Source of the DNA: Phycisphaerae bacterium
Lineage (GTDB): Bacteria > Planctomycetota > Phycisphaerae > UBA1845 > PWPN01
DNA: 35,883 nt
Assembly: GCA_012729395.1 (NCBI GenBank)
Contig: JAAYDF010000278.1
Coordinates: forward strand, 1-35,883
Direction: 5' to 3'
A model generated the notes under the pieces. The model saw nothing but the letters and a program-made list of their open reading frames with translations. It ran no database searches and had not been told where the DNA came from. The translations under genes and the position numbers were made by a program. How positions within the stretch are numbered: the stretch's first letter is position 1; each line of letters opens with the position of its first letter. Shown here piece by piece: positions 7,065 through 29,216 of the stretch.

Positions 7065-7138
7065 GGGGAAGGCTGAAGGCTGGCGGATGGTGTGGTGGTG
7101 ACGGGGGTCGTTTTCAGGTGACGGCAGGTGTTGGCGCC

Positions 7139-7234: not shown

Positions 7235-7262
7235 TGGTGCTGGGCGGAAGGTGGGATGCGGG

Positions 7263-8813: not shown

Positions 8814-8905
8814 AGGAGGAAGGGACAGGTCGGAAAGCTGGAGTGCTCATGGGACGGGGGATGTGGGGGGGGCATGGATGAGAGTGGGCAGCGAGAGAGA
8901 CGGCG

Positions 8906-8982
8906 GATTTGAGATCTGAGATTCGAGATTCGGGATCTGAGATTTGAGATTGGGGATTTGAGATTCGGGAACCGGGATTTGA
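8906..8982. repeat. Eleven tandem heptamers, consensus GATTYGR
   Basis: From 8906 to 8982 the sequence reads as eleven consecutive 7-base units, four of them exactly GATTTGA and the rest variants such as GATCTGA, GATTCGG and GATTGGG. It lies in the 202-bp murE-murF gap, which has no gene. Short heptameric arrays of this kind are known between genes in various bacteria; their role is unclear. Confidence 0.9.
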
Positions 8983-9015
8983 GGCAGGGTTGGGTGGCGG
9001 GACGTCGGATCTGAT

Positions 9016-10644: not shown

Positions 10645-10686
10645 TGAGTGCTGAGCACTGAGTACTGCGTACTGAGTGCTGGGTGG
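10645..10686. repeat. Six tandem heptamers, consensus TGAGTRC
   Basis: Starting immediately after the murF stop, six 7-base units run head to tail: TGAGTGC, TGAGCAC, TGAGTAC, TGCGTAC and further variants, ending with TGGGTGG. The unit differs in sequence from the heptamer array at 8906 but has the same length. Several units are self-complementary (GTAC, GAGCAC with GTGCTG), so the RNA or DNA could fold back. Confidence 0.85.
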
Positions 10687-10729
10687 CTTCTGTGGATTCC
10701 ACGGGTTGGGTTTGAGGATATGCTGAGGC

Positions 10730-11875: not shown

Positions 11876-11939
11876 GGCCGGCCGGTTGTGCGGGAGGCGG
11901 TACAGCGGACACGAGGGTGCTGTTGAAGGGAGTAAGGCC

Positions 11940-13145
11940 ATGAGCGACGCGGTATCTGCGAGCATGGCGGGTGCTGACCGATGGCCGGGCGCGGCAGAGC
12001 CCACCCTGATTGGCGTGACGACGCCTGGGCGGGCGACCTCGACGGGCATCGTGGCGATTGCGACGGGGTTGATGGGGGTCGGAGCGGTGATGACCTTCTC
12101 GGCGACGGCGTCGATCGATCGTCCGGTTCTTGGCTGGCCGCTGTGGGATTACCCGGCGATGCGTCAGTTGGTGTTTCTGGTTGCCGCGTTGGTGGCGATG
12201 TTGGCGACCGCGCTGGTGCCCTACCGGGTGTTCGTGGGGCAATCTGGGCGTCGGGCTCTTCTGTTGATGTTGCTTGCTTTAGCGGGTTCGGCGCTAGTGT
12301 TGATGCCGGGCGTTGGATACATGGCCAACAACGCGCGTCGATGGATCCCGCTTGGCCCGGAGAGCTATGGGTTACGGATCCAGCCTTCGGAGGTGGTGAA
12401 GCTGGGGTTGCCGGTGTTCCTGGCCGCGTGGATGGGCCTCCGGGCGGACGTGCGGAAGTTCTGGACGGGCTTTTTGCCGATGGTTTTGGTGATTGGAGCA
12501 GCGGCTGGGCTGGTGGGGATCGAGGATTTCGGGACGGCTGCGTTACTGGCGGTGGTGGGTGGGGGCATGTTGATGGTTGGGGGGGCTCGTTGGTTTCACC
12601 TGTTGCTGCTGGTGCTGCCTACGGTACCGGCCTTCGGGTATCTGCTCGTCAGCCGAGCCCACCGGATGGAGCGGTTGCTGATCTTTCTGGATATCTGGCG
12701 TGACCCTGAGGGCAAGGGCTACCAAGCGATCCAATCGTTGTGCACGATCGCCAGCGGGGGCTGGTGGGGTCGAGGTTTGGGGGCGGGGTTTGTGAAGGGC
12801 TATCTGCCGGCCGCCCGTACGGACTTCATCTTCTCCGTGCTTTGCGAGGAATTGGGTTTCGTTGGCGCGGTCGCGGTGATCGGTTTGCTGGTGGCGTTAG
12901 TCTGGCAGGGCTGGAAGGTGTTCAATCGTTGCGGTGACCCGGTGGGTCGGCTGCTGGCGTTGGGTATCACGTTGACGATCGGGGTTCAGGCGGTGATCAA
13001 CGTGGCGGTGGTGACCGTCTCGGTTCCGACGAAGGGGATCGCTCTGCCGCTGGTGTCGGCGGGCGGCTCGGGGGCGGTGTTTCTGGCGATCATGGTGGGC
13101 ATTCTGGCGAACATCCCGCGATTGCGGGTTTCTGAGCGTTCGTGA
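11940..13145 (+). CDS. ftsW: FtsW, septal lipid II polymerase (SEDS family)
   Basis: FtsW is the SEDS glycosyltransferase that polymerises lipid II at the septum together with FtsI. The 401-aa product has about ten membrane segments and the family blocks NNARRWIPLGPESYGLRIQP (residues about 122-141), YLPAARTDFIFSVLCEELG from residue 288, and LVSAGGSGAVF near the C-terminus followed by NIPR. The frame extends upstream to a TTG at 11886, but the ATG at 11940 has AGGGAG at 11927-11932, seven bases away, and gives a sensible cytoplasmic N-terminus. RodA is a close relative, but the dcw position favours FtsW. MurD, normally near here, is not present between mraY and ftsW. Confidence 0.94.
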   Translation: MSDAVSASMAGADRWPGAAEPTLIGVTTPGRATSTGIVAIATGLMGVGAVMTFSATASIDRPVLGWPLWDYPAMRQLVFLVAALVAMLATALVPYRVFVGQSGRRALLLMLLALAGSALVLMPGVGYMANNARRWIPLGPESYGLRIQPSEVVKLGLPVFLAAWMGLRADVRKFWTGFLPMVLVIGAAAGLVGIEDFGTAALLAVVGGGMLMVGGARWFHLLLLVLPTVPAFGYLLVSRAHRMERLLIFLDIWRDPEGKGYQAIQSLCTIASGGWWGRGLGAGFVKGYLPAARTDFIFSVLCEELGFVGAVAVIGLLVALVWQGWKVFNRCGDPVGRLLALGITLTIGVQAVINVAVVTVSVPTKGIALPLVSAGGSGAVFLAIMVGILANIPRLRVSERS

Positions 13146-13301
13146 CGGAATCGGCGGGGTTCGGGGTAGGGCCAAGGCGACTCGTTGCTGTTGGTCAGAT
13201 GCGTCAAGGCATGTCCATTGACACGGTGACTGGGTTCTGGGTCAATCGGCACTTGATGGGTTCACCCGCGGGTCCGGTCGCTGGCGCAGTGAGTATCGAG
13301 G

Positions 13302-13330
13302 TTCGCACTCGCGGCGATTGTTGGTACAAT
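13302..13330 (+). promoter_or_regulatory. Candidate sigma-70 promoter upstream of murG
   Basis: TTCGCA at 13302-13307 (4 of 6 to the -35 consensus) and TACAAT at 13325-13330 (5 of 6 to the -10 consensus) are separated by 17 bases, within the 271-bp ftsW-murG gap. The murG ATG lies about 85 bases downstream. This would give murG its own promoter inside the cluster. Confidence 0.45.
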
Positions 13331-13416
13331 GGCGGTACCGCGGACTCAGTTCTCATGCCGCGGAGAGGGAAGCCTCAGGTCGGATGGGGGGCGGTTCAAT
13401 GGGGCAAGGCGACCCG

Positions 13417-14628
13417 ATGACCGAGCGTGTTTGGTTTGTTTTTGGGGGGGGCGGAACCGGGGGGCACCTGTTCCCCGCGCTGTCTGTGGCGGATGTTCTG
13501 TCGGCGCGGTGCGGTGGTGTGGACGTTTCGTTTCTGTGCACACAGCGTCCGATGGATGCGGAACTGCTGCGTGCGGCGAAGGTTGAAGCGATTCCCCAGT
13601 CGGTTCGCCCGATTCCATCTCGTCCCTGGCAGTGGCCGGGCTGTCTGTTGCGCTGGCGGGAGTCGGTGGGCCTGTGTCGGAGGCTGTTTGCCCAGCGAAG
13701 GCCTGCCGCGGTCGTGGGGGCGGGAGGCTATGCGTCGGGTCCGCCGGTTCATGCGGCCTTGCGGATGGGCATTCCGACCTTCCTGTTAAATCCTGACGCG
13801 GTTCCGGGGCGGGCGAATCGTTACCTGGCGAAGCGGCGGGGTTTGGCGGGGATTTTCGCACAGTGGGAGGTGACTCGGGACCACCTTCCGGCGGCGGCTC
13901 CGGTGATAGTGACCGGTTGTCCTGTGCGGCGGGCGTTCCGGGAGGTTCGGCGGTCGGATGTGCCGGCGATCGTGCAGTCGTTTGGTTTGGATCCTGGGCG
14001 TCGGACGCTGCTGGTGACGGGGGCGTCGCAGGGAGCCCGGACGATCAACGAGGCGATGATGCGGCTGGCGGGGACGCTGAACTTTGCGGGGTGGCAGGTG
14101 CTGCACTTGACGGGTCCCGCGGACGCGGATCGGGTGGGCGCGGCGTATGCTCGGGCGAAGTCTTCGCTGGGGATGTGGCGGTTCCACGGCCGGGTGCTGG
14201 CGTTCACCGAACGGATGGCGGAGGCTGTGGCGGCAGCGGATCTGATCGTGTCGCGGGCGGGTGCTTCGACGTTGGCGGAGATCATCGCGGCAGGCAAGCC
14301 GTCGGTGTTGGTGCCCTACCCATATCATCGGGATCAGCATCAGCGGCACAATGCCACGGTGTTGGTGTCGGCGGGTGCGGCGTTGCTGGTGGATGATGCT
14401 CGAAACGCGGAGATGAACGCGAACCGATTGGGTTCGGTTTTGGCTCCGGTGTTGGCTGACGACGAGCGGCGGACCGCGATGGCCGAGGCGGCTCGCGGAT
14501 TGGACCGCGTGGATTCCGCGGAGCGGATCGCGGATCGTCTTCTGTCGGCGGTGGAGCACTCGTCGGAGCGGTCGCCGGATGGTGATTTGCCGGCTCATCC
14601 GCCGGTCTTATCACGACAGACAGCATGA
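13417..14628 (+). CDS. murG: MurG, lipid II-forming GlcNAc transferase
   Basis: MurG transfers GlcNAc from UDP-GlcNAc to lipid I at the inner face of the membrane, giving lipid II. From the ATG at 13417 the product is 403 aa, a little longer than the usual 360 because of a C-terminal tail. Motifs: GTGGHLFPAL at residues 13-22, GGYASGPPVHAALRMGIP, GASQGAR at 202-208, and SRAGASTLAEIIAAGKPS with PYPYHRDQHQRHNA, the UDP-GlcNAc binding block. The HEQN stretch found in many MurG proteins is replaced by LNPDAVPGRAN. The frame is open from 13318 and an ATG at 13399 is also possible; AAGG at 13406-13409 supports 13417. A candidate promoter lies upstream at 13302-13330. Confidence 0.94.
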   Translation: MTERVWFVFGGGGTGGHLFPALSVADVLSARCGGVDVSFLCTQRPMDAELLRAAKVEAIPQSVRPIPSRPWQWPGCLLRWRESVGLCRRLFAQRRPAAVVGAGGYASGPPVHAALRMGIPTFLLNPDAVPGRANRYLAKRRGLAGIFAQWEVTRDHLPAAAPVIVTGCPVRRAFREVRRSDVPAIVQSFGLDPGRRTLLVTGASQGARTINEAMMRLAGTLNFAGWQVLHLTGPADADRVGAAYARAKSSLGMWRFHGRVLAFTERMAEAVAAADLIVSRAGASTLAEIIAAGKPSVLVPYPYHRDQHQRHNATVLVSAGAALLVDDARNAEMNANRLGSVLAPVLADDERRTAMAEAARGLDRVDSAERIADRLLSAVEHSSERSPDGDLPAHPPVLSRQTA

Positions 14629-14876
14629 GTGCACAGCTCGGCCTCAAGGAATTGGCGAGCGGCACCCGATACAATAGAGGTTGTGCTTTGAGCGGGTGTG
14701 CGGTTCAGTGAGCTAACGGCGTTTGGCGCGTCGAGCTCGGCTTTCATTCTGGCAGCCTTTTCTTTAGCCCAAGCGGCGTCTCTCCGGTGATCGCTTGACG
14801 GCCGATCCTGACAGTGAACGGCTTATGCGGTCAAGAGCGTGAGGCGGGTGGGCATCGAAGGTTTCAGGACGGGCTC

Positions 14877-14905
14877 TTGGAACCCACTCCGCGACGGATT
14901 ACAAT
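14877..14905 (+). promoter_or_regulatory. Candidate sigma-70 promoter for murC-murB
   Basis: TTGGAA at 14877-14882 (4 of 6) and TACAAT at 14900-14905 (5 of 6) are spaced by exactly 17 bases. The next base run is A-rich, which is unusual in this GC-rich region. It points toward murC, whose ATG is at 15124. Confidence 0.5.
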
Positions 14906-14982
14906 AAGCAAAACAGCGCCGGCGCAGCGCGGCGTCGGGGTATGTGCATCGGAGCGACGCGACCCACCGCAGTCAACCTGGC

Positions 14983-15072
14983 CTGCCGGGCGGGAGCCCG
15001 GGGCAGTGCCTGATGGCGAGACGGCAGAAGCTGCCAGAGACTCTTGAAGGGGCCTTTGGGAGGTTGTGGCAG
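14983..15072 (+). promoter_or_regulatory. Alternative hairpins in the murC leader
   Basis: CTGCC blocks at 14983-14987 and 15031-15035 can pair with GGCAG blocks at 15002-15006, 15023-15027 and 15068-15072. The block at 15031 can form either a tight hairpin with 15023-15027 (loop AAG) or a longer one with 15067-15072 (CTGCCA with TGGCAG), but not both. Mutually exclusive pairing is what an attenuator or translation switch needs. No known riboswitch motif is recognisable and no T-run follows. Confidence 0.3.
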
Positions 15073-15123
15073 GTCTAGTTCGCGGGTGATGGTGTTGCCG
15101 TCAAGAGACGGAGGGAGCAGTCG

Positions 15124-16629
15124 ATGACCCAAAGCGCAAGGACGCGCAGACTATCCAGCGGGAAGCTGAACGCGGAGGCCCTGTACCCACCGGTTGGAGC
15201 GGGGGATGCGGCGATCCCGGCGGCGGGTCCGTTGACCTGTCCCGGGTCTGGTTCGCGGGTGCACATGGTCGGCGTGGGTGGTTGCGGCATGCGTGGTGCG
15301 GCCGCGGTGTTGTTGCGGCGCGGCGTACGGGTGAGCGGGTCGGATCTGTCGGACTCGGCGGAGTTGGGCGCTCTTCGCGCGGCGGGCGGGGAGATTCACA
15401 TCGGGCAGGGGGCGGAGAATGTTCCGGCCGACTGCGACTTGGTGGTATGTTCGGCCGCGGTGAAGGATGTCAATCCGGAAGTGGTCGCGGCACGCGAGCG
15501 TGGCTGCGCGGTGGTGAAGTACTCGCAGCTTTTGGGCCTGCTGATGGCGGACCGGCTGGGTGTCGGGGTAGCCGGCACGCACGGCAAGAGCACGACGACG
15601 GCCATGACGGCTTTCGTGCTTCGCCAGGCCAGCATGGACCCTTGTTTCGTGATTGGTGCGCAGGTTGAGCAGTTGGGCGGCGGCTCGGGTGTGGGCGACG
15701 GCCCGCATTTCGTCGTCGAGGCATGCGAATACGATCGTTCCTTTCTGAATCTGCATCCACGGTACGCGGCGATCCTCAATATCGAAGAAGATCATCTGGA
15801 TTACTACAAGGACCTCGATGAGATCATCGGGGCCTTCCAGGCGTTTGCGGGCCTGGTGCCGGAGTCGGGCGTGCTGGTGGTCAATGGCGAAGATGGGCAC
15901 GCGTTGCGGGCGGTGAGGCGTGCGGTTGCCCGGGTGGAGACCTTCGGGCTGTCGAGCGACGTGAATTGGCGTGCGGAGTTGCAGGGCACGGTGCGCGGTT
16001 GCTGGCGGTTCACCGTGTTGCGGGACGGCAAGCCGTTGACGGATGTCCAGTTGGCGATTCCCGGCAAGCATCAGGTGAGCAATGCCTTGGCGGCGATGGC
16101 CCTTTGCCTGCATGGCGGGGTCGAGCCGGAGACCATCGCCAAGGCCCTGGGCGATTTCAAGGGTGCGTATCGGCGGTTGACGTGGCGCGGTTGCGTGCAC
16201 GGCGTCAATGTGGTCGACGATTATGCCCACCATCCGACCGAGCTGCAGGTGACGATCCGGGCGGCGCGGGAGTATTACAGGCCGCGTAAGATGTTCGTGG
16301 TTTTCCAGCCGCACCAGCATTCACGGACGCGGTTCCTGCTTGATGATTTCGCGCACAGCTTCCAGGATGCGGACGTGGTGGTCGTGCCGGACATTTACTT
16401 TGTGCGGGACAGCCAGGCGGAGCGTGAGCTGGTCGATGCCGAGGATCTGGTTCGGCGGATAGGGGAGAACGGTCGGGATGCCCGTTACGAGGGCGGCTTC
16501 GGGCAGATCGTGTCGCAGCTTTGCGGCGAAGTGGAACCGGGTGATCTGGTGGTCACGATGGGGGCGGGGGACGTCTGGCGTGTGGCGGACGGGCTCTTGG
16601 ATTGTCTGACCAAGCGGTACGGAGGGTAG
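15124..16629 (+). CDS. murC: MurC, UDP-MurNAc-L-alanine ligase
   Basis: MurC adds L-alanine to UDP-MurNAc, the first stem-peptide step. The 501-aa product shows VHMVGVGGCGMRGAA (the N-terminal Rossmann glycine loop), P-loop GTHGKSTTT from residue 151, LNIEEDHLDYYKDLDEI, KHQVSNALAAMALC, DDYAHHPTEL, FQPHQHSRT and TMGAGDVWRV. An extra stretch of about 47 residues before the Rossmann motif is not typical. It is included because the ATG at 15124 has an excellent ribosome binding site (GGAGGGAG at 15110-15117, six bases away). murB follows after nine bases, so the two are probably one transcript from the promoter at 14877. Confidence 0.95.
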   Translation: MTQSARTRRLSSGKLNAEALYPPVGAGDAAIPAAGPLTCPGSGSRVHMVGVGGCGMRGAAAVLLRRGVRVSGSDLSDSAELGALRAAGGEIHIGQGAENVPADCDLVVCSAAVKDVNPEVVAARERGCAVVKYSQLLGLLMADRLGVGVAGTHGKSTTTAMTAFVLRQASMDPCFVIGAQVEQLGGGSGVGDGPHFVVEACEYDRSFLNLHPRYAAILNIEEDHLDYYKDLDEIIGAFQAFAGLVPESGVLVVNGEDGHALRAVRRAVARVETFGLSSDVNWRAELQGTVRGCWRFTVLRDGKPLTDVQLAIPGKHQVSNALAAMALCLHGGVEPETIAKALGDFKGAYRRLTWRGCVHGVNVVDDYAHHPTELQVTIRAAREYYRPRKMFVVFQPHQHSRTRFLLDDFAHSFQDADVVVVPDIYFVRDSQAERELVDAEDLVRRIGENGRDARYEGGFGQIVSQLCGEVEPGDLVVTMGAGDVWRVADGLLDCLTKRYGG

Positions 16630-16638
16630 GGATCGGCC

Positions 16639-17610
16639 ATGATGAGTTTCGTTCCTGAGTTCAGGGACATTCTTCGCGACCAGGAGCCGTTGGCCGGGTA
16701 TACCAGCTACGGTCTGGGTGGGCCGGCGCAGTGGCTGGCCTGTCCGCGGACGATTGACCAAGTAGCGCGGCTGGTCGGGTATTGTCGGGGGGAGGGGATC
16801 CCGCTTTACGTGCTGGGGCTCGGGGCCAACGTGCTGGTTAGTGACGAGGGCGTTGCGGGCTTGGTTGTGCGGCTCAACGCTCCTGGTTTTCGGCATGTGG
16901 ACTGGCCGCGGCCGGGTAGCGCGAATGGAAGTGGGCGTCGTCGGCAGGCGACGAATGGCGACAAGGTGACGATCGTGGCGGGCGGCGGTGCCGATATGCA
17001 CCGCTTGGTGCTCGAGGCAGTTCGGCGCGGTTTAGAGGGTGTCGAGGGGCTCGCGGGCATTCCCGGCACGCTGGGCGGGATCATCCGGATGAACGCGGGT
17101 GGCCAATGGGGGCAGATCGCCGACGTCGTCCGCGAGGTCACGGTGGTGGATGAGCGGGGGGCAATGCGGCACTTGCCGGCCAGTGAGGTTGGTTTTAGCT
17201 ACCGGAATACGCGGTTGGGGGATGCTGTGGTATGTCAGGCGAAGCTGGAGCTTCGGCCGGGCGATCCGGTGGCGCTTCGCGAGCGGTTCATGGCCATCTG
17301 GGAGCAGAAGAAGCGGTGTCAGCCGCTCAGCGAGCCGAGCGCCGGTTGCGTGTACAAGAATCCGCCGGGACATCGGGCGGGTGAGTTGATCGACCGTGCG
17401 GGGCTCAAAGGCAAGGCGATAGGTGGGGCAAGGATTTCGCAGTTGCACGCCAACTTCATCGTGACCCAGGAAGGGGCGACGGCCGAGGATGTGTTCAGCC
17501 TGATCGGGGAGACCCGCCGGGTGGTGGCCGACCGGTTTGGCGTGGAGTTGGAGCTGGAGATCAAGGTGTGGGGTCGGCAGCGGGCTCGGAGTTTGGAGCC
17601 GGCCTGCTAG
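16639..17610 (+). CDS. murB: MurB, UDP-N-acetylenolpyruvylglucosamine reductase
   Basis: MurB is a flavoenzyme that reduces UDP-GlcNAc-enolpyruvate to UDP-MurNAc with NADPH. The 323-aa product has the FAD-binding blocks YTSYGLGGPAQW, LGLGANVLVSDEG, GLAGIPGTLGG and RMNAGGQWGQIADVV, and ends with LHANFIVTQEGAT. It lacks the long insertion of E. coli-type MurB, so it is a type II form. The catalytic proton donor, Ser in E. coli (AGSFFKNP), is replaced by Cys at residue 237 (SAGCVYKNP); I recall cysteine being reported at this position in some type II enzymes. Between residues about 85 and 105 there is a basic glycine-rich insert (GSANGSGRRRQATNGD). Two adjacent ATGs (16639, 16642) are possible starts. 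Confidence 0.94.
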   Translation: MMSFVPEFRDILRDQEPLAGYTSYGLGGPAQWLACPRTIDQVARLVGYCRGEGIPLYVLGLGANVLVSDEGVAGLVVRLNAPGFRHVDWPRPGSANGSGRRRQATNGDKVTIVAGGGADMHRLVLEAVRRGLEGVEGLAGIPGTLGGIIRMNAGGQWGQIADVVREVTVVDERGAMRHLPASEVGFSYRNTRLGDAVVCQAKLELRPGDPVALRERFMAIWEQKKRCQPLSEPSAGCVYKNPPGHRAGELIDRAGLKGKAIGGARISQLHANFIVTQEGATAEDVFSLIGETRRVVADRFGVELELEIKVWGRQRARSLEPAC

Positions 17611-17660
17611 CGGAAGACGGGTGGCTTCGAGACTGAGGCAGTGTGTTGCTGGTGTCCGGG

Positions 17661-17700
17661 GACCACGAACAAGTTCGCTCGGTCCGACCACGAACAAGTT
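17661..17700. repeat. 15-bp direct repeat spaced by 25 bases upstream of ddl
   Basis: GACCACGAACAAGTT occurs exactly at 17661-17675 and again at 17686-17700, so the two starts are 25 bases apart. It falls in the 121-bp murB-ddl gap. Two identical sites on about the same helix face would suit a paired operator, but it may be just a short duplication. Confidence 0.8.
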
Positions 17701-17731
17701 TGTGGGGTTCGATGGAAGGCAGGGTGCGGTG

Positions 17732-18808
17732 ATGACTCGCATGGTTGACCAGGCGATGCGGCGGGCGGCGGCGAGCAACGTGGCTGCTCGGAAAGGGGCG
17801 GCGACGATGCCGTTGCGGGATTTGGCTTCGCCTTCGCAGGTGGCGGTCCCGAGCGGGGCGATTCTGGTGCCTGAGTACCCGCCTGTGCCGGAACTGGAGC
17901 GGGGTCTCAAGATCACGGTGCTGTCCGGGGGGGCGAGTGCGGAGCGTGAGGTCAGCCTGAAGAGTGGCCGGGCGGTTGCCGCATCGCTGACATCTTTGGG
18001 TCACGAGGTTCGGTTGGCGGACATCACTCCTGGGGATCTGCGGGCTCTTGACCAGCCCATGGATATGGTGTTCATCGCGCTGCATGGCAGTTTTGGCGAG
18101 GACGGTCGGCTTCAGCGGATTCTGGAGGAGCGTGGCATTCGGTACTGCGGCTCGGGGCCGGAGGCTTCGGCTGTGGCGATGGACAAGGTGGCGGCCAAGC
18201 GGCGGTTCGACGCGGAGGGCATTCCCACGCCACGGTTCGAGGTGGTCACACGGACGAATGCGGTGGATACATTGCACAGATGGGTTGGTCCGGCAGTGAT
18301 CAAGCCTGTCGCCGAGGGCAGCAGTGTCGATTGCGAATTGGCGGATGATCGGTACACGCTGATCCGGCGAGTCGGCGAGTTGACCGAGCGTTATGGGCGA
18401 TGCCTGATCGAGGAGTACATCCGGGGTCCGGAATTGACGGTGGGTATTCTGGGCGAGCAAGCGCTCCCGCCGATTGAGATTCGTACCAAGCGGCGGTTCT
18501 ACGATTATCAGGCGAAGTATGTGGATGATGACACGCAGTACTTGTTCGACATTGATTTGCCGCCGGATGTGTTGGCCGAGGTGATGACCTTGAGCGAGCG
18601 CGCGTCGGGGGCTTTGGGCTGTCGGGACTTTTGCCGTGTGGATTGGATGATTGACGCGGCGTCCTGTCGGCCCTATGTCTTGGAGATTAACACGATCCCC
18701 GGCTTCACGGATCATTCGTTGCTGCCGAAGGCGGCGTTGCGAGCGGGCTTGAGCTTTCCGGCTCTATGCCAGCGGATCATTGAGCTGAGCTTGCAGCGGG
18801 ATTCGTGA
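17732..18808 (+). CDS. ddl: Ddl, D-alanine-D-alanine ligase
   Basis: Ddl joins two D-alanines with ATP, supplying MurF. From the ATG at 17732 the product is 358 aa. The ATP-grasp and Ddl motifs are complete: LSGGASAEREVSLKSG, HGSFGEDGRLQ from residue 118, SAVAMDKVAAKRRF, VIKPVAEGSSV, EEYIRGPELTVGIL, YDYQAKY, and the metal-binding FCRVDW and LEINTIPGFT near the end. About 55 residues before the first motif are extra compared with typical Ddl and are Ala/Arg-rich. The frame is open further upstream to 17537 (overlapping murB), but that part is not protein-like. Placement between murB and ftsQ is classical. Confidence 0.94.
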   Translation: MTRMVDQAMRRAAASNVAARKGAATMPLRDLASPSQVAVPSGAILVPEYPPVPELERGLKITVLSGGASAEREVSLKSGRAVAASLTSLGHEVRLADITPGDLRALDQPMDMVFIALHGSFGEDGRLQRILEERGIRYCGSGPEASAVAMDKVAAKRRFDAEGIPTPRFEVVTRTNAVDTLHRWVGPAVIKPVAEGSSVDCELADDRYTLIRRVGELTERYGRCLIEEYIRGPELTVGILGEQALPPIEIRTKRRFYDYQAKYVDDDTQYLFDIDLPPDVLAEVMTLSERASGALGCRDFCRVDWMIDAASCRPYVLEINTIPGFTDHSLLPKAALRAGLSFPALCQRIIELSLQRDS

Positions 18809-18847: not shown

Positions 18848-19768
18848 ATGAAGAAGAAGCATCGCAAGGATCGCGCGAAAGAGGCCGCCCCGTCGGCAGA
18901 GGCTGAGGTGCGGGGTACGATTCTGCGCCCGTTGTTGCCGGTGGTTTGTATGGCCGTGCTGGTTTGTGGGGCGGTCTGGGGACTGGAGCGGCTTCGCGCC
19001 CATGTGTTCGCCTTGCCCGAGTATCGCCAGCCGATCCGTGTGGAGTTGCAGAATCCGCCGGACTGGCTTGAACGCGAGCGCTGGGGTCCGCGGATTCTGG
19101 CGGGGATCAAGATTCCCGCCGATGCGAGTCTACCGGACGCGACGTTGGTCAAGCAGATTGCCCAGGACTTGGCGGGCAGCGGCTGGGTGAAGCATGTGCA
19201 CGCGGTGCGGAAACGGATGGATGGGGCGGTGTTGGTTGACTGTGAGTATCGTCGTCCGATCGCGATGTTGCAGACGGAGTACGGCTATGTGCCGGTCGAT
19301 CGGGAGGGCGTGCGACTGCCGGAAGTGTACGAACGGGTAGACAACAGTTCGGGGTGGCTGCGGATCGTTGGGGTGAAGACGGAGATTCCGCAGGTTAACG
19401 GCAGGTTCGTGGGTGAAGACGCGAATGCGGCGATTGAGATTGCGTCGGGGATTTTCGACCAGGGTTGGGAGATTTCCTCGCGTCTGTGTGCGGTGGATGT
19501 GAACAATTTCCGGGGGCGTGTGGACCGGCGGAAGGATTACATCCTGGTGTGGCGGCCGGATCATCCGCACCCGATCATCTGGGGATCGGCGATTGGGGAG
19601 GAGATCGAGGAGCCGACGGCGGCGGAGAAGTTGGCGACGATCGCCGTGATGCTGAAGCAAGGTGGCCCGCAGGCCCAGGCGAATGTGAGCGTTTTCCCGG
19701 GCGCGGCCATTTATCCTGTGGCACCATCCGTCGAGACGGCCGACAGTTCCACTCGCCGCGACCGATAA
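18848..19768 (+). CDS. ftsQ: FtsQ/DivIB-like division protein
   Basis: FtsQ links the early division proteins with FtsL/FtsB. The 306-aa product begins with a Lys/Arg-rich cytoplasmic tail (KKKHRKDRAKE), one membrane segment (about residues 25-46), then an extracytoplasmic part. That part has the FtsQ pattern: a POTRA-like region followed by WVKHVHAVRKRMDGAVLVDC, YRRPIAML and YGYVPVDREGVRLP. The ATG at 18848 is chosen over a GTG at 18839 three codons earlier; neither has a strong ribosome binding site. It is in the usual ftsQ slot after ddl. Unlike most bacteria, no ftsA or ftsZ follows. Confidence 0.85.
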   Translation: MKKKHRKDRAKEAAPSAEAEVRGTILRPLLPVVCMAVLVCGAVWGLERLRAHVFALPEYRQPIRVELQNPPDWLERERWGPRILAGIKIPADASLPDATLVKQIAQDLAGSGWVKHVHAVRKRMDGAVLVDCEYRRPIAMLQTEYGYVPVDREGVRLPEVYERVDNSSGWLRIVGVKTEIPQVNGRFVGEDANAAIEIASGIFDQGWEISSRLCAVDVNNFRGRVDRRKDYILVWRPDHPHPIIWGSAIGEEIEEPTAAEKLATIAVMLKQGGPQAQANVSVFPGAAIYPVAPSVETADSSTRRDR

Positions 19769-19774
19769 CCGCGT

Positions 19775-19803
19775 TTGCCAGCCTGAGTCTGCAGGGATAG
19801 AGT
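19775..19803 (+). promoter_or_regulatory. Candidate sigma-70 promoter for the membrane-protein pair
   Basis: TTGCCA at 19775-19780 (5 of 6 to -35) and TAGAGT at 19798-19803 (4 of 6 to -10) are 17 bases apart, just after the ftsQ stop. The first membrane protein starts about 40 bases downstream, which suggests the pair can be expressed independently of the dcw genes. Confidence 0.45.
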
Positions 19804-19844
19804 ATATCCAGAGGGGACTGTGTCCTTGGGGGTTGAGGTGCGCT

Positions 19845-20720
19845 GTGTTCGATTTGCCCGCCGTGCTCGATCAGCTCTCCAGATGGGGAGCGTTTATCCG
19901 GGAGTACCGGTTGGTTGATCTGGGTTCTCACCCGGTCGCGGCGGCTGTCGGGGCGGTGGCGGCTGGTCTGCTGCTTTGTCTGTGGGGCGCTCGGATCCTG
20001 CGTACCGTGTACATTCTGGTGTTCATGTCGGTAGGGGCCGGGCTGGGCATTCAACTGGCACGGCAAGCGGAAGTCGACGTTCTGATCGGGTTGGTGCTGG
20101 GTGCGGGCGTGCTTGCCCTGGTTGGTCACCTGCTGTTTCGGTTGTGGGTAGGGGGCACGGTGGGGCTGGTGGCTTTGACCGCCGTGCTGGCTCTGGGTGC
20201 ACCGTGGATTGGCGACGAGGCACAGCGGTACGCGGACCGACTGTTGGAGCTGGCGACGGGCGATCGGGTTTTCGCGGCCGCGGTGGAAGCGGCGGTGGAG
20301 GCCGAACTCGAGCGCGGCCCAGTTCTGCCGTCGACGGCTGAAGAGCGGTTTTCCCTGTATGAGGCGGCCTCCCAGCTTGGGTCGTTTCTGTGGGCCGAGC
20401 GGCATGAGGAGCTATGGCGGGTTGTGTTTTTGGGAATGGTTGCCGGCCTGTTGGGATTAGCTCTTGGGGTGGTATGGCCGCGGCTGGTGATGATTGTTGG
20501 CACGTCGGCTGTTGGTGCGATTTTGGTGACCGGCGGCGTGTTGACTCTGGCGGTTCGACTCTGGCCCGCGGCCTGGGATTGGATTGAGTCGAGGCCGTCG
20601 GGCGTGCCGATCGCGGTCGGTGTTGTGTTGCTTCTTGCCATGCTCCGCCAGGGGCTGCGGCGTTCGGCACTGGCGGTCACTCCGGCTGTGGTGCCAGCGA
20701 CGCCGGCGAAGGCCGCCTGA
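19845..20720 (+). CDS. Multi-pass membrane protein (DUF4203/TM198-like, tentative)
   Basis: The 291-aa product has about seven hydrophobic segments. Four lie in the first 125 residues (including GAVAAGLLLCLWG and VYILVFMSVGAGLGI). A charged soluble loop of about 55 residues follows (YADRLLELATGDRVF to ERHEELW), then further segments to residue 275. The glycine-rich, regularly spaced segments resemble the DUF4203/TM198 fold, but I cannot confirm this. The GTG at 19845 is chosen because GAGGT sits five bases before it; a TTG at 19833 is the alternative. It follows ftsQ where ftsA/ftsZ are normally found and precedes a second membrane protein of similar style, so the two may act together. Function unknown. 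Confidence 0.75.
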   Translation: MFDLPAVLDQLSRWGAFIREYRLVDLGSHPVAAAVGAVAAGLLLCLWGARILRTVYILVFMSVGAGLGIQLARQAEVDVLIGLVLGAGVLALVGHLLFRLWVGGTVGLVALTAVLALGAPWIGDEAQRYADRLLELATGDRVFAAAVEAAVEAELERGPVLPSTAEERFSLYEAASQLGSFLWAERHEELWRVVFLGMVAGLLGLALGVVWPRLVMIVGTSAVGAILVTGGVLTLAVRLWPAAWDWIESRPSGVPIAVGVVLLLAMLRQGLRRSALAVTPAVVPATPAKAA

Positions 20721-20747
20721 TCGACCGGGTCAGAAAGTGCTGGGGCC

Positions 20748-21368
20748 ATGTCTTCAATCTCGTTTCGGGCATTGGTGGAGGGGATGGAGGGGCAGGATCT
20801 GGTATTGGGGGTGGTGCTGCTCGGCGCGGGCCTGGTGTTCATGATCGTGGGTGGTCGGCTTTTCAAGATGCTCTTGGCATTGAGTTTCGCGGGGGTGGGC
20901 TTGGTTCTGGGGGCGTCTCTGCCGATTTCGGAACCCTATCACTGGGTGGTGGGCGCCGTGGTGGGGTTGGGTTTGGCGTTGATCAGCACGCTGGTAGCGA
21001 AAGTGGCCGTTGGGGTCTTGGCGGGCGGCTGGGCAGGGCTGGCGGTGGCGGCTGCTTTGATGGGTGTGGGGGTGAGCGACCAAGTCGTGCTGATTGTTGG
21101 GGGGGTGATCTGTGCCGTGGTCATCTCGCTGACCTTTGTGTTGTACCAGGAGATCATCGCGGCAGTGATGAGTTTTGAGGGGACACTGCTGTTCCTGGCG
21201 GGTCTGATTGTCTTCCTGAGTCACTCGGCTTCGGGCTGGGCGCCCTTGCGAGCGATGTTTTTGGATATGCCGTTTTTCGGTGCGTTTCTGCTGATAGCGG
21301 GGACGGTGACCGGCTTCTATCTTCAGGTGACGGAGTTGCAGAAGCGGCAGGTCGGCACATCGGGTTGA
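20748..21368 (+). CDS. Multi-pass membrane protein, partner of the preceding gene
   Basis: The 206-aa product is almost entirely hydrophobic, with six or seven glycine-rich membrane segments (for example LVLGVVLLGAGLVFMIVGGR, LVAKVAVGVLAGGWAGLAVA and AFLLIAGTVTGFYLQV). The early GGRLFKMLLALSFAGVGLVL resembles the DUF4203/TM198 pattern. It starts with an ATG at 20748, 27 bases after the preceding stop, with no strong ribosome binding site. Similar topology and adjacency suggest these are two paralogues or subunits of one membrane complex. It is the last gene with the G/T-ending codon style of the dcw region. Confidence 0.75.
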   Translation: MSSISFRALVEGMEGQDLVLGVVLLGAGLVFMIVGGRLFKMLLALSFAGVGLVLGASLPISEPYHWVVGAVVGLGLALISTLVAKVAVGVLAGGWAGLAVAAALMGVGVSDQVVLIVGGVICAVVISLTFVLYQEIIAAVMSFEGTLLFLAGLIVFLSHSASGWAPLRAMFLDMPFFGAFLLIAGTVTGFYLQVTELQKRQVGTSG

Positions 21369-21722: not shown

Positions 21723-24700
21723 ATGGCGGTTCGTTTTGTGGTCGGACGCGCGGGAGCGGGCAAGACCTGGCATTGCCTCGAAGCGATCCGGGCCGGCCTG
21801 CGCCGCGACGCCGCCCGCGGGCCGCGATTGCTGCTCCTGGTGCCCGAGCAGGGCAGCTTCCAGATGGAACGGGCCCTGATCGAGACGCCCGACCTGCCCG
21901 CCTACACGCGGTGCGAGGTGCTGAGCTTCCAGCGACTCGCCTACCGCATCTTCGCCGAGACCGGAGCGGATCCCCGGCGAGGCGACCAGACCATCGGCGG
22001 CCTGGGACGCATGATGGTTGTGCGAAGGCTGATCGGGCAGGAACGCGGGGGGCTGAGCATCCTCGGCCCGGTGGCTGACAAGCCCGGGCTCGTCGGGCAG
22101 GTGGTGAGAGCGGTTGACGAGCTGATGCGCGAGAACGTCGAGCCGGCGGTTCTGGAAGAGCTGGCCGCGAGAACACAGGTCGACAACCCACTCGGTGGAG
22201 CCAGGCTGAGCGACCTGACCCGGCTCTACCGGGCCTATCTCGATTACCTGAGCGAAGACCGACTGGACCCCGCCCAGTACCTGCGACTGGCGGCCGAACG
22301 GTTGACGCACTGCCGGTGGATTGACGGAGCTGAGGTTTACGTCGACGGCTTTGCCGGCTTCACCCGGCAGGAGTCGGCCCTGCTGGTGGAACTGGCTCGT
22401 CGGGCGGAACGGGTCGAGATCGCCTTGCTGATGGACCCCGCCGCCGCCGCGGTTACCTCTGATACGCTGCCTTCGTTGTCTTTCTCGCTGTTCGCCCGGA
22501 CGGAACGCACGCTGGTGCAGTTGCGCAAGGATCTGCGGGCCGCGGGTGTTACCGAAGACGAGCCGCTGCGATTGGGCGACCAGGTGCCGCGGCGTTTCCG
22601 TGGGCCGGGGCTGGCGGAACTCGAACGTCATGTGTTCGCCGAGCGGGCACCGAAAGTCGACGCCATTTCGTCGCCGTCGGTACGGGTGCTGGAACTCCCC
22701 GATCGGCGGGCGGAGGTGGACGCGGCCGTGACCGAGATTCTGCGCCTCACCCGCGAGGCCGACCCGCCCATGCGCTATCGCGACATCGCGGTGATCGTGC
22801 GCGACCTCGAGGCCTACCACGACCTGCTTTCGGCAGCCATGCGGGCCCACCACATCCCCTGTTTCATTGATCGCCGCCAGCCGACGACGCACCATCCGCT
22901 CATCGAGCTGGTGCGCTCGCTTTTGGCCGTCGCCCAGGATGATTGCCGGCTCGACGCGGTCCGTCTGATGCTCAAGACCGGGTTGCTGCCGATCGCCGCC
23001 GGGGACGCCGACCTGCTGGAGAACTACTTACTGGCTCACGGGATCGAGGGCCGCACGCGATGGCTCAATGAATGGCAGCAGCGTCGATTGTTCAAGCACC
23101 GCGGCCCGGACGACCAGTTGCGGCCCTATCAGCAAGAAGCCCTGGCGCGGGTCAATCGTGCCCGCGAAATCTGGCTGGAGCTGATGGGTGAGTGGTTGGA
23201 TGCCGCGACCGAGCCAACCACTCCCGGTCGCCAACGCATCGAGGCCCTTTACGCGTGTCTGGACAGGCTGGCGGTGGGGCGGCAGCTCATGGACTGGGCG
23301 GCCCAGGATGAGGAGGATGGACTGCCCGATCAGGCGGCAACGCACCGTCAGGTGTGGGGCGACTTCCTGGAACTGCTCGACGAGTTTGCCCACGCGTTGG
23401 GTGACGAACCGCTGACCTCGGCGGCTTTCCGTGAGATCATCGAGGCGGGGCTCGGCGAGTTCGACCTGGGCCTCGCACCGCCGACCCTCGACCAAGTGCT
23501 CGTCGGAGCGATCGAGCGCAGCCGGCAGCCGGCCATCCGCGCCGCCCTCGTTTTGGGTTTCGACCAGACGTTCTTTCCGCGACGGCGATCCGAGGATCCG
23601 CTGCTCGGCGATGAAGAGCGCGAGGCCCTCGAAGCGGCGGGAGTGGGCATCGGCCCCTCACGACGTCGCCAGTTGCTCGACGAACGGATGGTCGCGTACC
23701 TGGCGTTGACCCGGGCCTCGCAGCGGCTGTGGATCAGCTACCCGCGCGTAGAGGTCGACGGTGGACCGTTGGAGCCGTCGCCGTTCCTCGTGCATGTGCT
23801 GGAGGCTCTGCCCGGCCTGGCGGTCGAGAAGGTCCAGGATCCGCGGCAGGACCGCAAGCCGGCTTGGGTGAACCGCGTCGGCGAGTTGGGGGGGCGACTC
23901 GCGGCGGAGTTCCGCTATCGGCCGACCTTGGCGGCGGATCGTGGAGGCGATGAGCGGGCGGTCTGGAATGCGCTGTACGAGGCGGGTCGTTCTCGCTCCG
24001 AGTGGGCCGCGGGGCTGCGACGGACGCTGTCGGGTTTGGCCTACCGCAACCTCGCTCAGCTGTCGCCGAGCTTGGCCGCCCAATCGCTCGCCGAGCCGTT
24101 CATGGCCAGCGTCAGCCGGCTCGAACGGTTTGCCGCCTGCGCGTTTGCCCACTTCGCCGAATACGCCCTGCGGCTTGAACCACGGGTCGAGGCCGAGATG
24201 ACCGCCCTGGAAGTGGGTACGCTCTGCCATGGGATTCTCGAACAACTTATTGACGGTTGGGCCGGCGAGGGCCGGCGACTCGCGGATATCGAGGACGACC
24301 AGATCGCGGCGGATATCGAGTCGGTGACGGAGAGAATCCTGCCGCAGTTGCTCGGCGACCTGGTAGTGGAGGGGCCGCAGAACGACTACCTTTGCGATCG
24401 CAGTCAGGCCCTTGTGAAGCGGGTGACCTGCTGGCAGCGCGACTCGGCCCGGGCGGGGCGGTTCAATCCCAAGGCGGTCGAGTTCCCCTTCGGGTACCAC
24501 GGGCCGGGCAATGCCCTCACTCTGGCCACGCCCAAGGGCCGCACCATTCACCTGCGCGGTCGGATCGATCGCGTCGATATCGCCGAACTCGCCGATGAAC
24601 TGGTCGGCATGGTCATCGACTACAAGACGACCTACGATCGCCGGTTGGATCTTACCGCCGTTTATCATGGTCTGTCCCTGCAATTGGTGGGATACTTGCT

Positions 24701-25205
24701 GGCCCTCCAGCAGCAGGGTCACACGTTGACCGGCCGCCCGATCCGCCCGGTGGCTGCCGTCTATCTGCCCTTGCTTGAACAGTACGAAACCGTCGCGCAT
24801 CCCACGGTCGGTAAGGGCAAACGCTACCAGTGGCGGGGCGTGCTGGATCTGTCGGCTTTGGATGTCTTGGACGCGGGGGCTCGTGACGCGGGCGGCTCAG
24901 CGTTCTTCTCCGCCCGAATCACCAAGGCGGGCGAGCCATACGCGGTCTCCGATTTGGCTTCGCGAGACGAGCTGGCGGCGGTGATGCGGCACGTGGGGCT
25001 GAGGATGGGCGAGCTGGCCGACGGGATCATCGACGGGTGCGTCGACGTCAACCCCTACTCCCTGCGGCGATACACCCCCTGCACCTGGTGCGTCTATCAG
25101 TCCGTGTGCCGGTACGAGATCGAGACCCAACCACCGCGCCCCCTGGATTCGTACCAGGGCCGTGAGGTGCTGGCCCTGCTCAGCGGCGGAGGTGGCCATG
25201 CCTGA
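21723..25205 (+). CDS. addB: AddB, helicase-nuclease subunit with iron-sulfur cluster
   Basis: AddB pairs with AddA to resect double-strand breaks for recombination, replacing RecBCD in many bacteria. The 1160-aa product starts with a Walker A (GRAGAGKT, residues 8-15) followed by LLLVPEQGSFQME, a known AddB signature. Its C-terminal nuclease has RIDRVD and VIDYKTT (Asp966, Lys968). The four cysteines of the iron-sulfur cluster are visible: Cys806 in FAACAFAHF, and Cys1120, 1123 and 1129 in CTWCVYQSVC, the AddB spacing. GGAGGT at 21711-21716 is a strong ribosome binding site. Its end overlaps addA by 8 bases. From here on codons end mostly in C. Confidence 0.94.
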   Translation: MAVRFVVGRAGAGKTWHCLEAIRAGLRRDAARGPRLLLLVPEQGSFQMERALIETPDLPAYTRCEVLSFQRLAYRIFAETGADPRRGDQTIGGLGRMMVVRRLIGQERGGLSILGPVADKPGLVGQVVRAVDELMRENVEPAVLEELAARTQVDNPLGGARLSDLTRLYRAYLDYLSEDRLDPAQYLRLAAERLTHCRWIDGAEVYVDGFAGFTRQESALLVELARRAERVEIALLMDPAAAAVTSDTLPSLSFSLFARTERTLVQLRKDLRAAGVTEDEPLRLGDQVPRRFRGPGLAELERHVFAERAPKVDAISSPSVRVLELPDRRAEVDAAVTEILRLTREADPPMRYRDIAVIVRDLEAYHDLLSAAMRAHHIPCFIDRRQPTTHHPLIELVRSLLAVAQDDCRLDAVRLMLKTGLLPIAAGDADLLENYLLAHGIEGRTRWLNEWQQRRLFKHRGPDDQLRPYQQEALARVNRAREIWLELMGEWLDAATEPTTPGRQRIEALYACLDRLAVGRQLMDWAAQDEEDGLPDQAATHRQVWGDFLELLDEFAHALGDEPLTSAAFREIIEAGLGEFDLGLAPPTLDQVLVGAIERSRQPAIRAALVLGFDQTFFPRRRSEDPLLGDEEREALEAAGVGIGPSRRRQLLDERMVAYLALTRASQRLWISYPRVEVDGGPLEPSPFLVHVLEALPGLAVEKVQDPRQDRKPAWVNRVGELGGRLAAEFRYRPTLAADRGGDERAVWNALYEAGRSRSEWAAGLRRTLSGLAYRNLAQLSPSLAAQSLAEPFMASVSRLERFAACAFAHFAEYALRLEPRVEAEMTALEVGTLCHGILEQLIDGWAGEGRRLADIEDDQIAADIESVTERILPQLLGDLVVEGPQNDYLCDRSQALVKRVTCWQRDSARAGRFNPKAVEFPFGYHGPGNALTLATPKGRTIHLRGRIDRVDIAELADELVGMVIDYKTTYDRRLDLTAVYHGLSLQLVGYLLALQQQGHTLTGRPIRPVAAVYLPLLEQYETVAHPTVGKGKRYQWRGVLDLSALDVLDAGARDAGGSAFFSARITKAGEPYAVSDLASRDELAAVMRHVGLRMGELADGIIDGCVDVNPYSLRRYTPCTWCVYQSVCRYEIETQPPRPLDSYQGREVLALLSGGGGHA

Positions 25206-28200
25206 CCTGCCGGAGCTGCGTGAACTCTTCGCCCACTTGACCGAGCCGCAGCGCCGCGCGGTGCTGGCCGTCGATCGCAGCCTGCTGGTGTCCGCGGCGG
25301 CCGGAGCCGGCAAGACCATGGTCCTCGCCGAACGCATCGCCGCCTTGGTTTGCGATCTGCCCGCTCCCCGGCGATGCCGGGTTGATGAACTCCTGGTGGT
25401 CACCTTCACCGAGGCGGCGGCTCGCGAGATGCGTACGCGGATCGGCTCTGCGATCCAGAAACGCATCGCCGCCCGCCCGCGCGACGATTATCTCCGCGAG
25501 CAACTCTACCTGTTGGACAACGCGTCCATCTCGACCATCCACGCCTTCTGCCGGGCGCTTATCCAGCGCTGGTTCCCGCAGGCCGAGGTCGACCCGCAGG
25601 TCGCCGTTCTCGCCGAGGACGAGGCCGAGCTGCTGCGACTCGAAGTCATCGAGGATCTCTTCGAGGATCGGTTCGGCTCAGGCGACGATGCCGGGGCTCG
25701 TTTCCGGCAGTTCCTTGAGGAGTATGCTGATGGCAGCGAGGCTCGGGTGCGGCCCATCGTCCTGCAGTTGTCGAGCTTCCTCGGCAGCTTGCCCGCCCCC
25801 GAGGACTGGATGCGCATGGCCCACGGCCGACTCGCCGCCGGCGCCCAAGGCAGTCTCGTGGGGCATGTCGACGAATGCCAGAAGCAACGCCTGCTGCGCG
25901 AGCTGAGTCTCCAGGCGGAATACGCCCAGGAACTGGCCGCCACCGTCCGCTCCGCCTGGCCTGTGGCGTCGCTCCGCGCCGAAGCCCTCGATGCCCATGC
26001 CGCGCAACTCCAGGAATGGCATGCCGCGCTCGGCGAGGCCAAGGCCTCCGCATGGACCTTCATCGCCGACGCGATCAGCAACTACGACCTGAAAACCAAA
26101 CGCAAGCCCTCCAAGCTTTCGCCGGAAGACAGCGCCGCCTACGACGCGGCCAAGGACCTCGTGGATGAGGCCAAGCGGTTGCTCAAAAGCCGGCTTCGGG
26201 ATGCCCTCTGCCGGTTCACTACTGAGGAATACGAGACAGGTCTGCAACTCATCGCTCCGCACGTACACACGCTGCTGGAGCTTGTCTACGAGTTCAACGA
26301 GCGTTATCGCGAGGCCAAGCGGAACCAGGCGGTTGTGGACTTCGAGGATCTGCAGCGATCCGCCTATCGCCTGCTGATTGATCCGGACAACCGGACCGGG
26401 CCCTCTGAAGTCGCTCGCCACTTGCAGCGGCAGTACCGCCACGTCCTGGTGGACGAGTTCCAGGATGTGGACCCGCTGCAAGAGGCCATTCTCCGGATGG
26501 TCAGCCGCGAGTCCGCCGACCCGCCGGCCGGCAACCTGTTCACCGTCGGCGACATCAAGCAGAGCATCTACCGCTTCCGCCTCGCCGAGCCCGACCTCTT
26601 CGCCAAGCGGACGGAGCAGTTTGCCGACGGCTCCGACCTCGGCGAGGTCATCCATCTGCAGGAGAACTTCCGCAGCCGCCGCGAGGTGCTCGACGCGGTG
26701 AACGCCGTCTTCCGCCCGCTGATGCGGCCGACGTTCGGCGGCACCGATTACGACGCGCACGCCGAGCTGCGGGCGGGCATGGCCTACCCCGAGGCGGCCG
26801 AGGATGGACCGGTCTTCGGTCGGCCGGCGGTCGAACTGCACCTGCTCGAACCCATCACCAGCCGAAACGCCCCCACGGTCGCGCATACCGATGACGAGGA
26901 TGATGGCTCCGCGGATGCAAACGGCGGCGACGAGGAACTCGACGGCCTCGACCGTGAGGCCCTGCTGATTGGCCGGCGTATCCGGACCTGGATGGGGCTT
27001 GAAGGCGACGGCAGGCGCTGGCAGGTGGCGGATCGGCCGGCCACACCCGGCGGAGCGCTCGTCACCCGACCGGTCGAGTTCAGCGATATCGTCATCCTTC
27101 TGCGATCCATGCTCCACAAGGCCGAGCCCATCGCTGAGGTGCTTCGCCGCATGGGTATCCCCGTGCGCATCGAGCGAGCCGAGGAAAGCATCGACTCGAC
27201 CGAGTATCGCGACCTGCTCAGCCTGCTCCAGGTGCTCGACAATCAGCAGCAGGATATTCCTCTGGCCGCTGTGCTGCGATCGCCGCTTCTGGGCCAGTCG
27301 TTCAGCGAGAGCGAATTGCTGGAGATCCGCTTGCTGGACCGCGAGGTGCCGTTCCACGCAGCCGTCGCCCGATATGCCCGCGAAGGGAAGAAGAAAGCAC
27401 TGCGAGAGAGAATCGCGGCGGTGCTCAGCCAGCTCGACAGGTACCGCACGCGCATGCGACGCTCGCCCGTGGCCGACGTGCTCTGGGAGATCTACCAGGA
27501 GACGGATTACCTGGCCTATGTCTCCGGGCTGCCCGGCGGCCTGCGACGGCAGGAGCACCTCATCAGCTTGCATGAGGTGGCCCGGCAATTCGGCGGCTTC
27601 GCCCGTCAGGGTCTGCGCCGCTTCCTGCGATTCGTCGAGGATCTTATCGCCCAAGAGCGCCAACCCGTGCCCGGCATGCCCGGAAGCGCCAACGACAACG
27701 TCGTCCGCATCATGTCCATCCATGCCAGCAAGGGCCTTGAGTTCCCCATCGTCGTCCTGCCCGACCTGAGCAAGCGATTCAATCTCCAGGATCTCCGCGG
27801 CAACGTCATCGTCGACCGCAAACTGGGTATTGGCCTTCGGGCGGTCAACGCCGACCAGCGCATCCGCTACCCGACCCTCGCCCACCAGCTCGCCGCCGAG
27901 CAAGTGTTGCGCGAGACCCTCTCAGAGGAACTACGCATCCTGTACGTCGCTCTGACCCGTGCCCGCGAGCACCTCGTTCTCGTCGCCCGCCTGTCACCCC
28001 AGCGAATCGAGCGCTGTCGGCACTGCGGTCGCTCGGGCGGCGGCCCGGCCATCTCGCAGCTTCAGCTCGAAACCGCCGGCCAACCCATCGATTGGCTGCT
28101 GCCGGCCGTCTGCACCGTGCCCGAGCTTGCCAACTGGCCCGAGGACGAGCGGACCGGCAAGCCGTCTGCCGCCTTGTTCGAGGTGCGGATCTACCCGCGA

Positions 28201-29112: not shown

Positions 29113-29151
29113 GTGACGACGCCAACGAGCCGGGGGTGACAACCCCCGGTT
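29058..29151. repeat. Two copies of a 26-bp REP-like palindrome
   Basis: Copies at 29058-29083 and 29126-29151 differ at one base. Each folds into a perfect 8-bp stem, CCGGGGGT with ACCCCCGG, with a four-base loop (GAAA in the first, a GNRA loop; GACA in the second). They begin CGAGCC and end GGTT. The first is inside the 3' end of the addA frame; the second is in the addA-comEC gap and is followed by TTTAGT. In that position the pair may also end transcription or protect the mRNA end. Confidence 0.85.
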
Positions 29152-29216
29152 TAGTCCGCAAGCAAGCAGATAAGCACTATCGCGAACGCGCCACTTACTG
29201 GGGTTACCCCTTCGCG

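Follow-up and report, generated by a model that had tools for sequence, protein, structure and literature searches.

A Phycisphaerae division and cell wall gene cluster that ends in ftsQ followed by a pair of membrane protein genes

We analyzed a window of 35,883 nucleotides (contig JAAYDF010000278.1, assembly GCA_012729395.1), which corresponds to contig C254 in a 5.74-Mb, 370-contig, 99.55%-complete genome of a Phycisphaerae bacterium. The organism belongs to UBA1845, an order of that class (PMC11266412; this and the other papers are cited from those parts of their text that were available to us). The plus strand of the window carries a division and cell wall (dcw) gene cluster that runs from mraW through murE-murF-mraY-ftsW-murG-murC-murB-ddl to ftsQ, and then continues into two genes for multi-pass membrane proteins that we term tmA (19845–20720, 291 residues) and tmB (20748–21368, 206 residues), followed by DNA-repair genes. 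The position behind ftsQ that elsewhere holds ftsA-ftsZ is occupied by neither of those genes in the window or in its order, and neither was found in the remainder of its genome. The dcw cluster of the order instead ends in ftsQ-tmA, usually followed by tmB.

The part of the cluster upstream of ftsQ (2675–18808) displays the mra-mur-fts gene order on a single strand. Pfam matches between 2675 and 18805 identified, in order, MraW (gene start 2675), an FtsI-type penicillin-binding protein (5214), MurE (7128), MurF (9016), MraY (10730), FtsW (11886), MurG (13318), MurC (15124), MurB (16639) and Ddl (17537). A small gene starting at 4919 is called ftsL-like solely because of an NCBIfam FtsL match that stays below threshold (E 1.9e-5, 24.5 of 55 bits). 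A reading made earlier from the sequence alone (hereafter the sequence-only reading) had described a cluster with ftsI, ftsW, an ftsL-like gene and ftsQ, and the Pfam order, a profile of the FtsQ family and the sub-threshold FtsL match agree with it. A LysM-domain protein (Pfam; 3765–4922) is encoded within the cluster, after mraW and ahead of the ftsL-like gene, and the usual place of murD, between mraY and ftsW (10730–13142), is without a copy, an observation on cluster position only. To the right of tmB, addB, addA and a comEC-like gene (21723–31790, plus strand, by Pfam) form a boundary that is not conserved beside TmB in relatives.

The gene at 18848–19768 (plus strand, 306 residues) follows ddl and encodes a protein with a single N-terminal transmembrane (TM) segment. 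The protein has no Pfam match, including to the FtsQ family PF03799, a profile that is insensitive here (positive in only 6 of 14 control genomes) and that matched one of 25 FtsQ relatives from the order of the window (set A3, E 0.074) and one of 14 from a wider planctomycete set (A7, E 0.0042). An initial scan of genome contigs with the single window sequence found nothing. A profile of the window FtsQ family scored 130–135 bits on genes located directly upstream of ftsA-ftsZ in two genomes (G174 and G205) of another planctomycete class, versus 2.8 bits on E. coli FtsQ. Profile comparisons with E. coli FtsQ by hhalign were weak, both for the wider planctomycete set (E 0.0013, probability only 18%) and for the set from the order (E 0.029, probability 1.7%), and a search of PDB sequences with the FtsQ profile returned no FtsQ, matching S8 and S100A9 chains alone. 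Because the family profile matches a gene lying between ddl and ftsA-ftsZ in G174 and G205, the gene at 18848, which shares the FtsQ/DivIB features of a homolog directly upstream of ftsA-ftsZ, a single N-terminal TM segment and a position after ddl, is best read as ftsQ, and the position behind it is, by sequence homology, the ftsA-ftsZ slot.

Searches for the missing genes were made in the genome itself and in 114 genomes of the order, 65 of which we term good (completeness of 90% or more, contamination of 5% or less). FtsZ (PF00091) was found neither in the 99.55%-complete genome of the window (in a search where 13 of 14 control genomes were positive) nor in any of the 65 good genomes, and the FtsA SHS2 domain was found in none of the 114 (8 of 14 controls were positive). 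Two FtsZ matches in the order, both doubtful, were set aside as likely contamination: a canonical FtsZ, 47% identical to that of E. coli, on a 3.8-kb contig of G363 (94% complete, 8% contaminated), and a fragment of canonical appearance at one end of a 4.7-kb contig in G376 (63% complete). Three PF14450 matches in the genome of the window, considered as FtsA candidates, were rejected as MreB (with MreC behind it) and two PilM proteins; the genome thus carries MreB and MreC, and the check for ftsZ or ftsA elsewhere in it, which the sequence-only reading had proposed, came back empty.

TmA is predicted to start at a GTG located 6 nucleotides behind a GAGG motif, within a longest open reading frame that begins at 19833. 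Both proteins are rich in glycine (10.7% in TmA and 14.1% in TmB), and an hhalign comparison (probability 97.8, E 7.7e-13) identifies them as paralogs. The earlier description of two glycine-rich, multi-pass proteins in the ftsA-ftsZ slot is therefore upheld by the reading frames, by composition and by the FtsQ homologs that precede ftsA-ftsZ. Conserved positions are mostly glycines, with a few arginines and, near the end of each protein, one glutamine that is almost invariant (Q193 in 24 of 24 TmB sequences, Q273 in 28 of 29 TmA sequences). AlphaFold2 predicted a confident bundle of approximately seven TM helices for TmB (mean predicted local distance difference test score, pLDDT, 91.7) and a less certain helical model for TmA (mean pLDDT 84.7). 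These all-helical models, along with the lack of PF14450 or PF00091 matches, offer no indication of an actin-like or tubulin-like fold in either protein.

Neither window protein has a Pfam match at E ≤ 1 or an NCBIfam match at E 0.1. The only family touched by several of their relatives is PF13886 (TM7S3/TM198-like), which we take to be the former DUF4203 and whose members have about seven TM helices, a number seen in the predicted TmB model and with less certainty in that of TmA. At E ≤ 1 it matched 9 of 29 TmA and 10 of 24 TmB sequences (best E among TmB members, 1e-6); in a scan of 10 relatives three matched, all below the cut-off (best score 24.3 versus 29.2 bits). The DUF4203 relationship suggested by the sequence-only reading was thus recovered among relatives at sub-threshold level, and the data lend weak support to TmA and TmB being distant relatives of TM7S3/TM198. 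TMEM198 has a reported part in forming double-membrane vesicles when animal cells are infected (PMC12157921), which at this distance would be only a loose hint towards membrane shaping by TmA and TmB.

Between ftsQ and tmA lies a sigma-70-like promoter candidate (TTGCCA-17-TAGAGT, 19775–19803, plus strand). A site is indeed present where the sequence-only reading had placed a candidate promoter for the pair; it is a weak one, because it matches the consensus at 9 of 12 positions and sites of that quality occur twice in 3.2 kb, against 0.6 expected from shuffled sequence.

A search with the single TmA sequence detected the protein in 29 of 61 genomes (its own included). Profile searches detected TmA in 107 of the 114 genomes of the order (64 of the 65 good ones) and FtsQ in 105. 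The linkage counts, which leave out most secondary matches per genome, cover the 102 genomes with both proteins, seven genomes being without TmA and nine without FtsQ (five have TmA only and three FtsQ only). Of the 102, 87 have tmA behind ftsQ in the same orientation, the matched parts being 91–505 nucleotides apart, and this adjacency was found in six families of the order (f1, f2, f4, f6, f7 and f8), although identity to the window proteins falls as low as 21% for TmA and 26% for FtsQ. TmB was detected in 92 of the 114 genomes and is next after TmA in 77 of those; the genomes in which it is undetected or unlinked belong mainly to families f4 and f7.

We read 28 loci of relatives in detail. 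FtsQ precedes TmA in 24 of them; of the other four, one begins at a contig end and three hold TmA away from the dcw cluster. AddB, AddA and ComEC were found in none of the 28, the sequence available behind the pair being 6 kb or more in 21 of them and shorter in seven. The linkage of ftsQ and tmA is far above chance, and because relatives retain the left side of the cluster and the FtsQ-TmA junction but have a reshuffled right side, the comparison argues for a linkage that is selected rather than one that reflects recent common descent. The commonest first gene after the pair encodes, on the same strand, a protein resembling TIM-barrel epimerases (the L039 copy matches PF01261), present in 9 of the 28 loci (L023, L031, L035, L037, L039, L041, L042, L045 and L047).

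A scan of named genomes with the FtsQ alignment gave 35 loci, 32 of them from records with Phycisphaerae, Phycisphaerales, Phycisphaeraceae or Planctomycetota in their titles. TmA follows FtsQ in 23 (with TmB as well in 22), a count not independent of the previous one, since these loci partly repeat contigs of the order genomes. One locus (L110) that carries the dcw cluster of the window's order comes from a record titled Alphaproteobacteria bacterium IP29b_bin.190, which is probably mislabelled. None of the remaining 12 loci has TmA behind FtsQ: two of them stop at FtsQ, in one FtsQ has no dcw neighbors, seven belong to clusters of a Phycisphaerales type and the last two come from Laterigemmans and Roseimaritima, which we take to be Pirellulales.

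In six of the seven Phycisphaerales-type loci the slot behind ftsQ leads to another gene, which we call cardiolipin-synthase-like (it is of phospholipase-D type, and the name reflects its PLDc and PLDc_N domains); in the remaining locus the contig extends just 0.9 kb beyond FtsQ. The gene lies directly after ftsQ in L136 and L140, behind one intervening gene in L131, and 0.5–0.9 kb from ftsQ in L132, L135 and L138. L131, L136 and L140 were scanned with Pfam; a profile made from their genes matches the remaining three, of which two are contig-end fragments. In Chlamydia, which is also without FtsZ, localized synthesis of cardiolipin reportedly guides MreB to the site of division (PMC9499288).

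The lack of FtsZ in planctomycetes, which the sequence-only reading had taken as established, appears not to be universal. The available text of two papers has ftsZ in no planctomycete genome (PMC6952346, PMC11032199), while a third states that Planctomycetota ‘largely lack’ it (PMC11929135). In one class, two draft genomes (L166 in G174:C529 and L168 in G205:C187) carry murC-murB-ddl-ftsQ-ftsA-ftsZ in that order, with an FtsQ of planctomycete type, and this sequence evidence speaks against an absence across the whole phylum. A third FtsZ-bearing locus of the same class is L167 (G101:C206). FtsZ was found in three of nine genomes of that class, and in neither of the two that are >90% complete and <5% contaminated. 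All three positive genomes are fragmented metagenome-assembled genomes (81–89% complete, 2–6% contaminated), so that mis-binning is possible; it is less likely for L166 and L168 because the planctomycete-type FtsQ is on the same contigs. The three FtsZs are 30–39% identical to one another and 23–30% identical to E. coli FtsZ. A membrane protein is encoded behind FtsZ in all three loci, with a relationship that is clear for two of them (E 4e-11) and weak for the third (E 5e-7 and 0.06).

In a phylum sample of 294 genomes, the TmA profile matched in 30 (that of the window included), 15 of which are among the 21 genomes from other orders of the same class. Matches outside the class were weak (best E 7e-7), and the five of them that were read are TmB-like. 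We read 20 of the 29 other loci (15 in the class and five outside it), and none has FtsQ or Ddl beside the match, two of them (L087 and L102) holding less than 1.5 kb upstream. Three genomes of one genus in the class (L081, L083 and L084, in G269, G321 and G217) also carry divergent tubulin/TubZ-like proteins in open frames of 445–460 residues; the one at L081 exceeds the Tubulin cut-off and also touches Tubulin_2 and TubZ-like_C.

What drives binary-fission-like division in Phycisphaerae without FtsZ is a question posed in PMC6952346, and division without FtsZ is described for Planctopirus limnophila (PMC12283558) and for planctomycetes (PMC6952346). The reading that we prefer, with a probability of roughly 0.45, is that TmA and TmB form an accessory membrane factor of an FtsZ-less division machinery. 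Because the pair is added to the dcw gene run, it is probably produced in step with septal wall synthesis, TmA and TmB being made together with FtsL, FtsI, FtsW and FtsQ. The cluster would supply wall precursors (through the Mur enzymes and MraY), the septal synthase pair FtsW/FtsI and the activators FtsQ and the FtsL-like protein, without FtsA-FtsZ. As membrane-embedded parts of this septal peptidoglycan machinery, TmA and TmB might organize or shape the membrane for MreB, or stabilize or place the FtsQ/FtsW/FtsI complex, at sites of MreB-guided wall synthesis; they would not be FtsZ-like force generators. We infer the co-expression, contact and placement that such a role supposes. Cardiolipin synthase acting upstream of MreB in FtsZ-less Chlamydia (PMC9499288) provides a precedent for membrane organization. 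The suggestion in the sequence-only reading that these neighbors are candidates for a linked function is supported in part, by the conserved linkage to ftsQ across the order; the septation part of it would be an extrapolation.

Several observations weigh against an accessory role in division. In 15 of the 102 genomes TmA does not adjoin FtsQ, and TmB is undetected in 22 of the 114, so that the pair does not always follow ftsQ, as the sequence-only reading had proposed to check. Thirteen of the 15 have the two genes on different contigs of draft assemblies (some at contig ends, four from one genus, and including the single genomes of families f3 and f5), and two have them on the same contig, 2.5 kb and 1.4 Mb apart. 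Other orders of the class hold the pair away from dcw, and in 7 of 23 unlinked loci it adjoins one gene family, of which the member scanned is a PheA-type chorismate mutase-prephenate dehydratase. Since the pair occurs outside dcw in those orders, its function cannot require dcw linkage, and the distribution suggests that it does not depend on it. In addition, fold searches of the PDB gave no match that implies a biochemical role: the best Foldseek match of TmB had E 0.95 (no usable relative), the best VIA-align match of TmB (TMEM45A, Z 6.1, root-mean-square deviation 5.8, 156 residues aligned) was tied with an unrelated enzyme at 6.1, and that of TmA (Z 5.2, deviation 9.4, 183 aligned) was at noise level, Z values that low possibly reflecting merely a common arrangement.

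These points leave a different explanation almost as likely, because the pair exists outside dcw in other orders: TmA and TmB could be passengers at the operon tail, membrane-homeostasis or transport proteins that exploit growth-linked dcw expression and have no part in division. The copies beside the pheA-like genes, a TmB that seems dispensable or movable and a tmA that may have a weak promoter of its own all fit such passengers, and a literature search, with subscription papers mostly outside it, gave no paper joining DUF4203 with bacteria. It is harder to reconcile with them that adjacency to ftsQ is kept across a deep order while the neighbors on the other side change, and that another class has ftsA-ftsZ at this position. 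An unlikely alternative is that the two proteins carry a lipid or a wall precursor through the membrane to serve septal synthesis, as a transporter or scramblase in an ftsW cluster; the predicted multi-helix bundles of a paralogous pair, with their conserved glycines and near-invariant glutamine, would suit this, but a few arginines are the sole well-conserved charged residues and structural similarity to transporters is weak and lacks specificity. We consider it very improbable that the pair has functionally replaced FtsA-FtsZ as organizer and driver of septation. It does sit where two genomes of another planctomycete class have ftsA-ftsZ, and TmA is near-universal in the good genomes of the order; however, the modelled proteins appear all-helical, without a nucleotide-binding or polymer fold, the pair lies elsewhere in other orders, and a different gene fills the slot in Phycisphaerales-type genomes. 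For these last two reasons, and since TmB is missing or unlinked in many members of the window's own order, the word ‘replaced’ in the sequence-only reading holds only in part.

Returning to an accessory membrane factor, we can sketch a broader history, which we regard as doubtful. Planctomycetota may have lost FtsA-FtsZ after the order ddl-ftsQ-ftsA-ftsZ had arisen (it would be kept in some members of one class), and FtsZ-less lineages may have refilled the slot with membrane-organizing genes, which would be TmA/TmB for the window's order and the cardiolipin-synthase-like gene for the Phycisphaerales type. Membrane domains that recruit MreB and FtsW/FtsI would then set division sites, in a manner comparable to cardiolipin in Chlamydia. 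Planctomycetes with ftsQ-ftsA-ftsZ would represent the state before that loss and make the comparison of the slot direct, and a gene tied to ftsQ across the order, in most cases along with its paralog, provides named candidates for division in FtsZ-less Phycisphaerae. The order-wide dcw variant ending in ftsQ-tmA(-tmB) is new; our literature search, which mostly did not extend to subscription papers, returned no report of ftsQ-linked TmA/TmB or of planctomycetes with ftsQ-ftsA-ftsZ.

Compared with the TM7S3/TM198-like proteins of PF13886, TmA and TmB are of similar size and have the same glycine-rich, many-TM layout, and the sub-threshold matches of their relatives span most of the model; they differ in that the curated cut-off is unreached in the scan that displayed it (24.3 versus 29.2 bits) and the window proteins themselves are unmatched. 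FtsZ-less bacteria of the Planctomycetes-Verrucomicrobia-Chlamydiae group (Planctopirus limnophila and Chlamydia) resemble the order of the window in being without FtsZ and FtsA and in having MreB, FtsW, FtsI and FtsQ; a difference is that no gene of TmA/TmB type is named in the available parts of PMC12283558 and PMC6952346. Compared with the canonical dcw cluster, which in E. coli K-12 ends in ddlB-ftsQ-ftsA-ftsZ, that of the window has the same gene order from mraW to ddl-ftsQ; it differs in being without murD between mraY and ftsW, and in carrying tmA-tmB in the place of ftsA and ftsZ.

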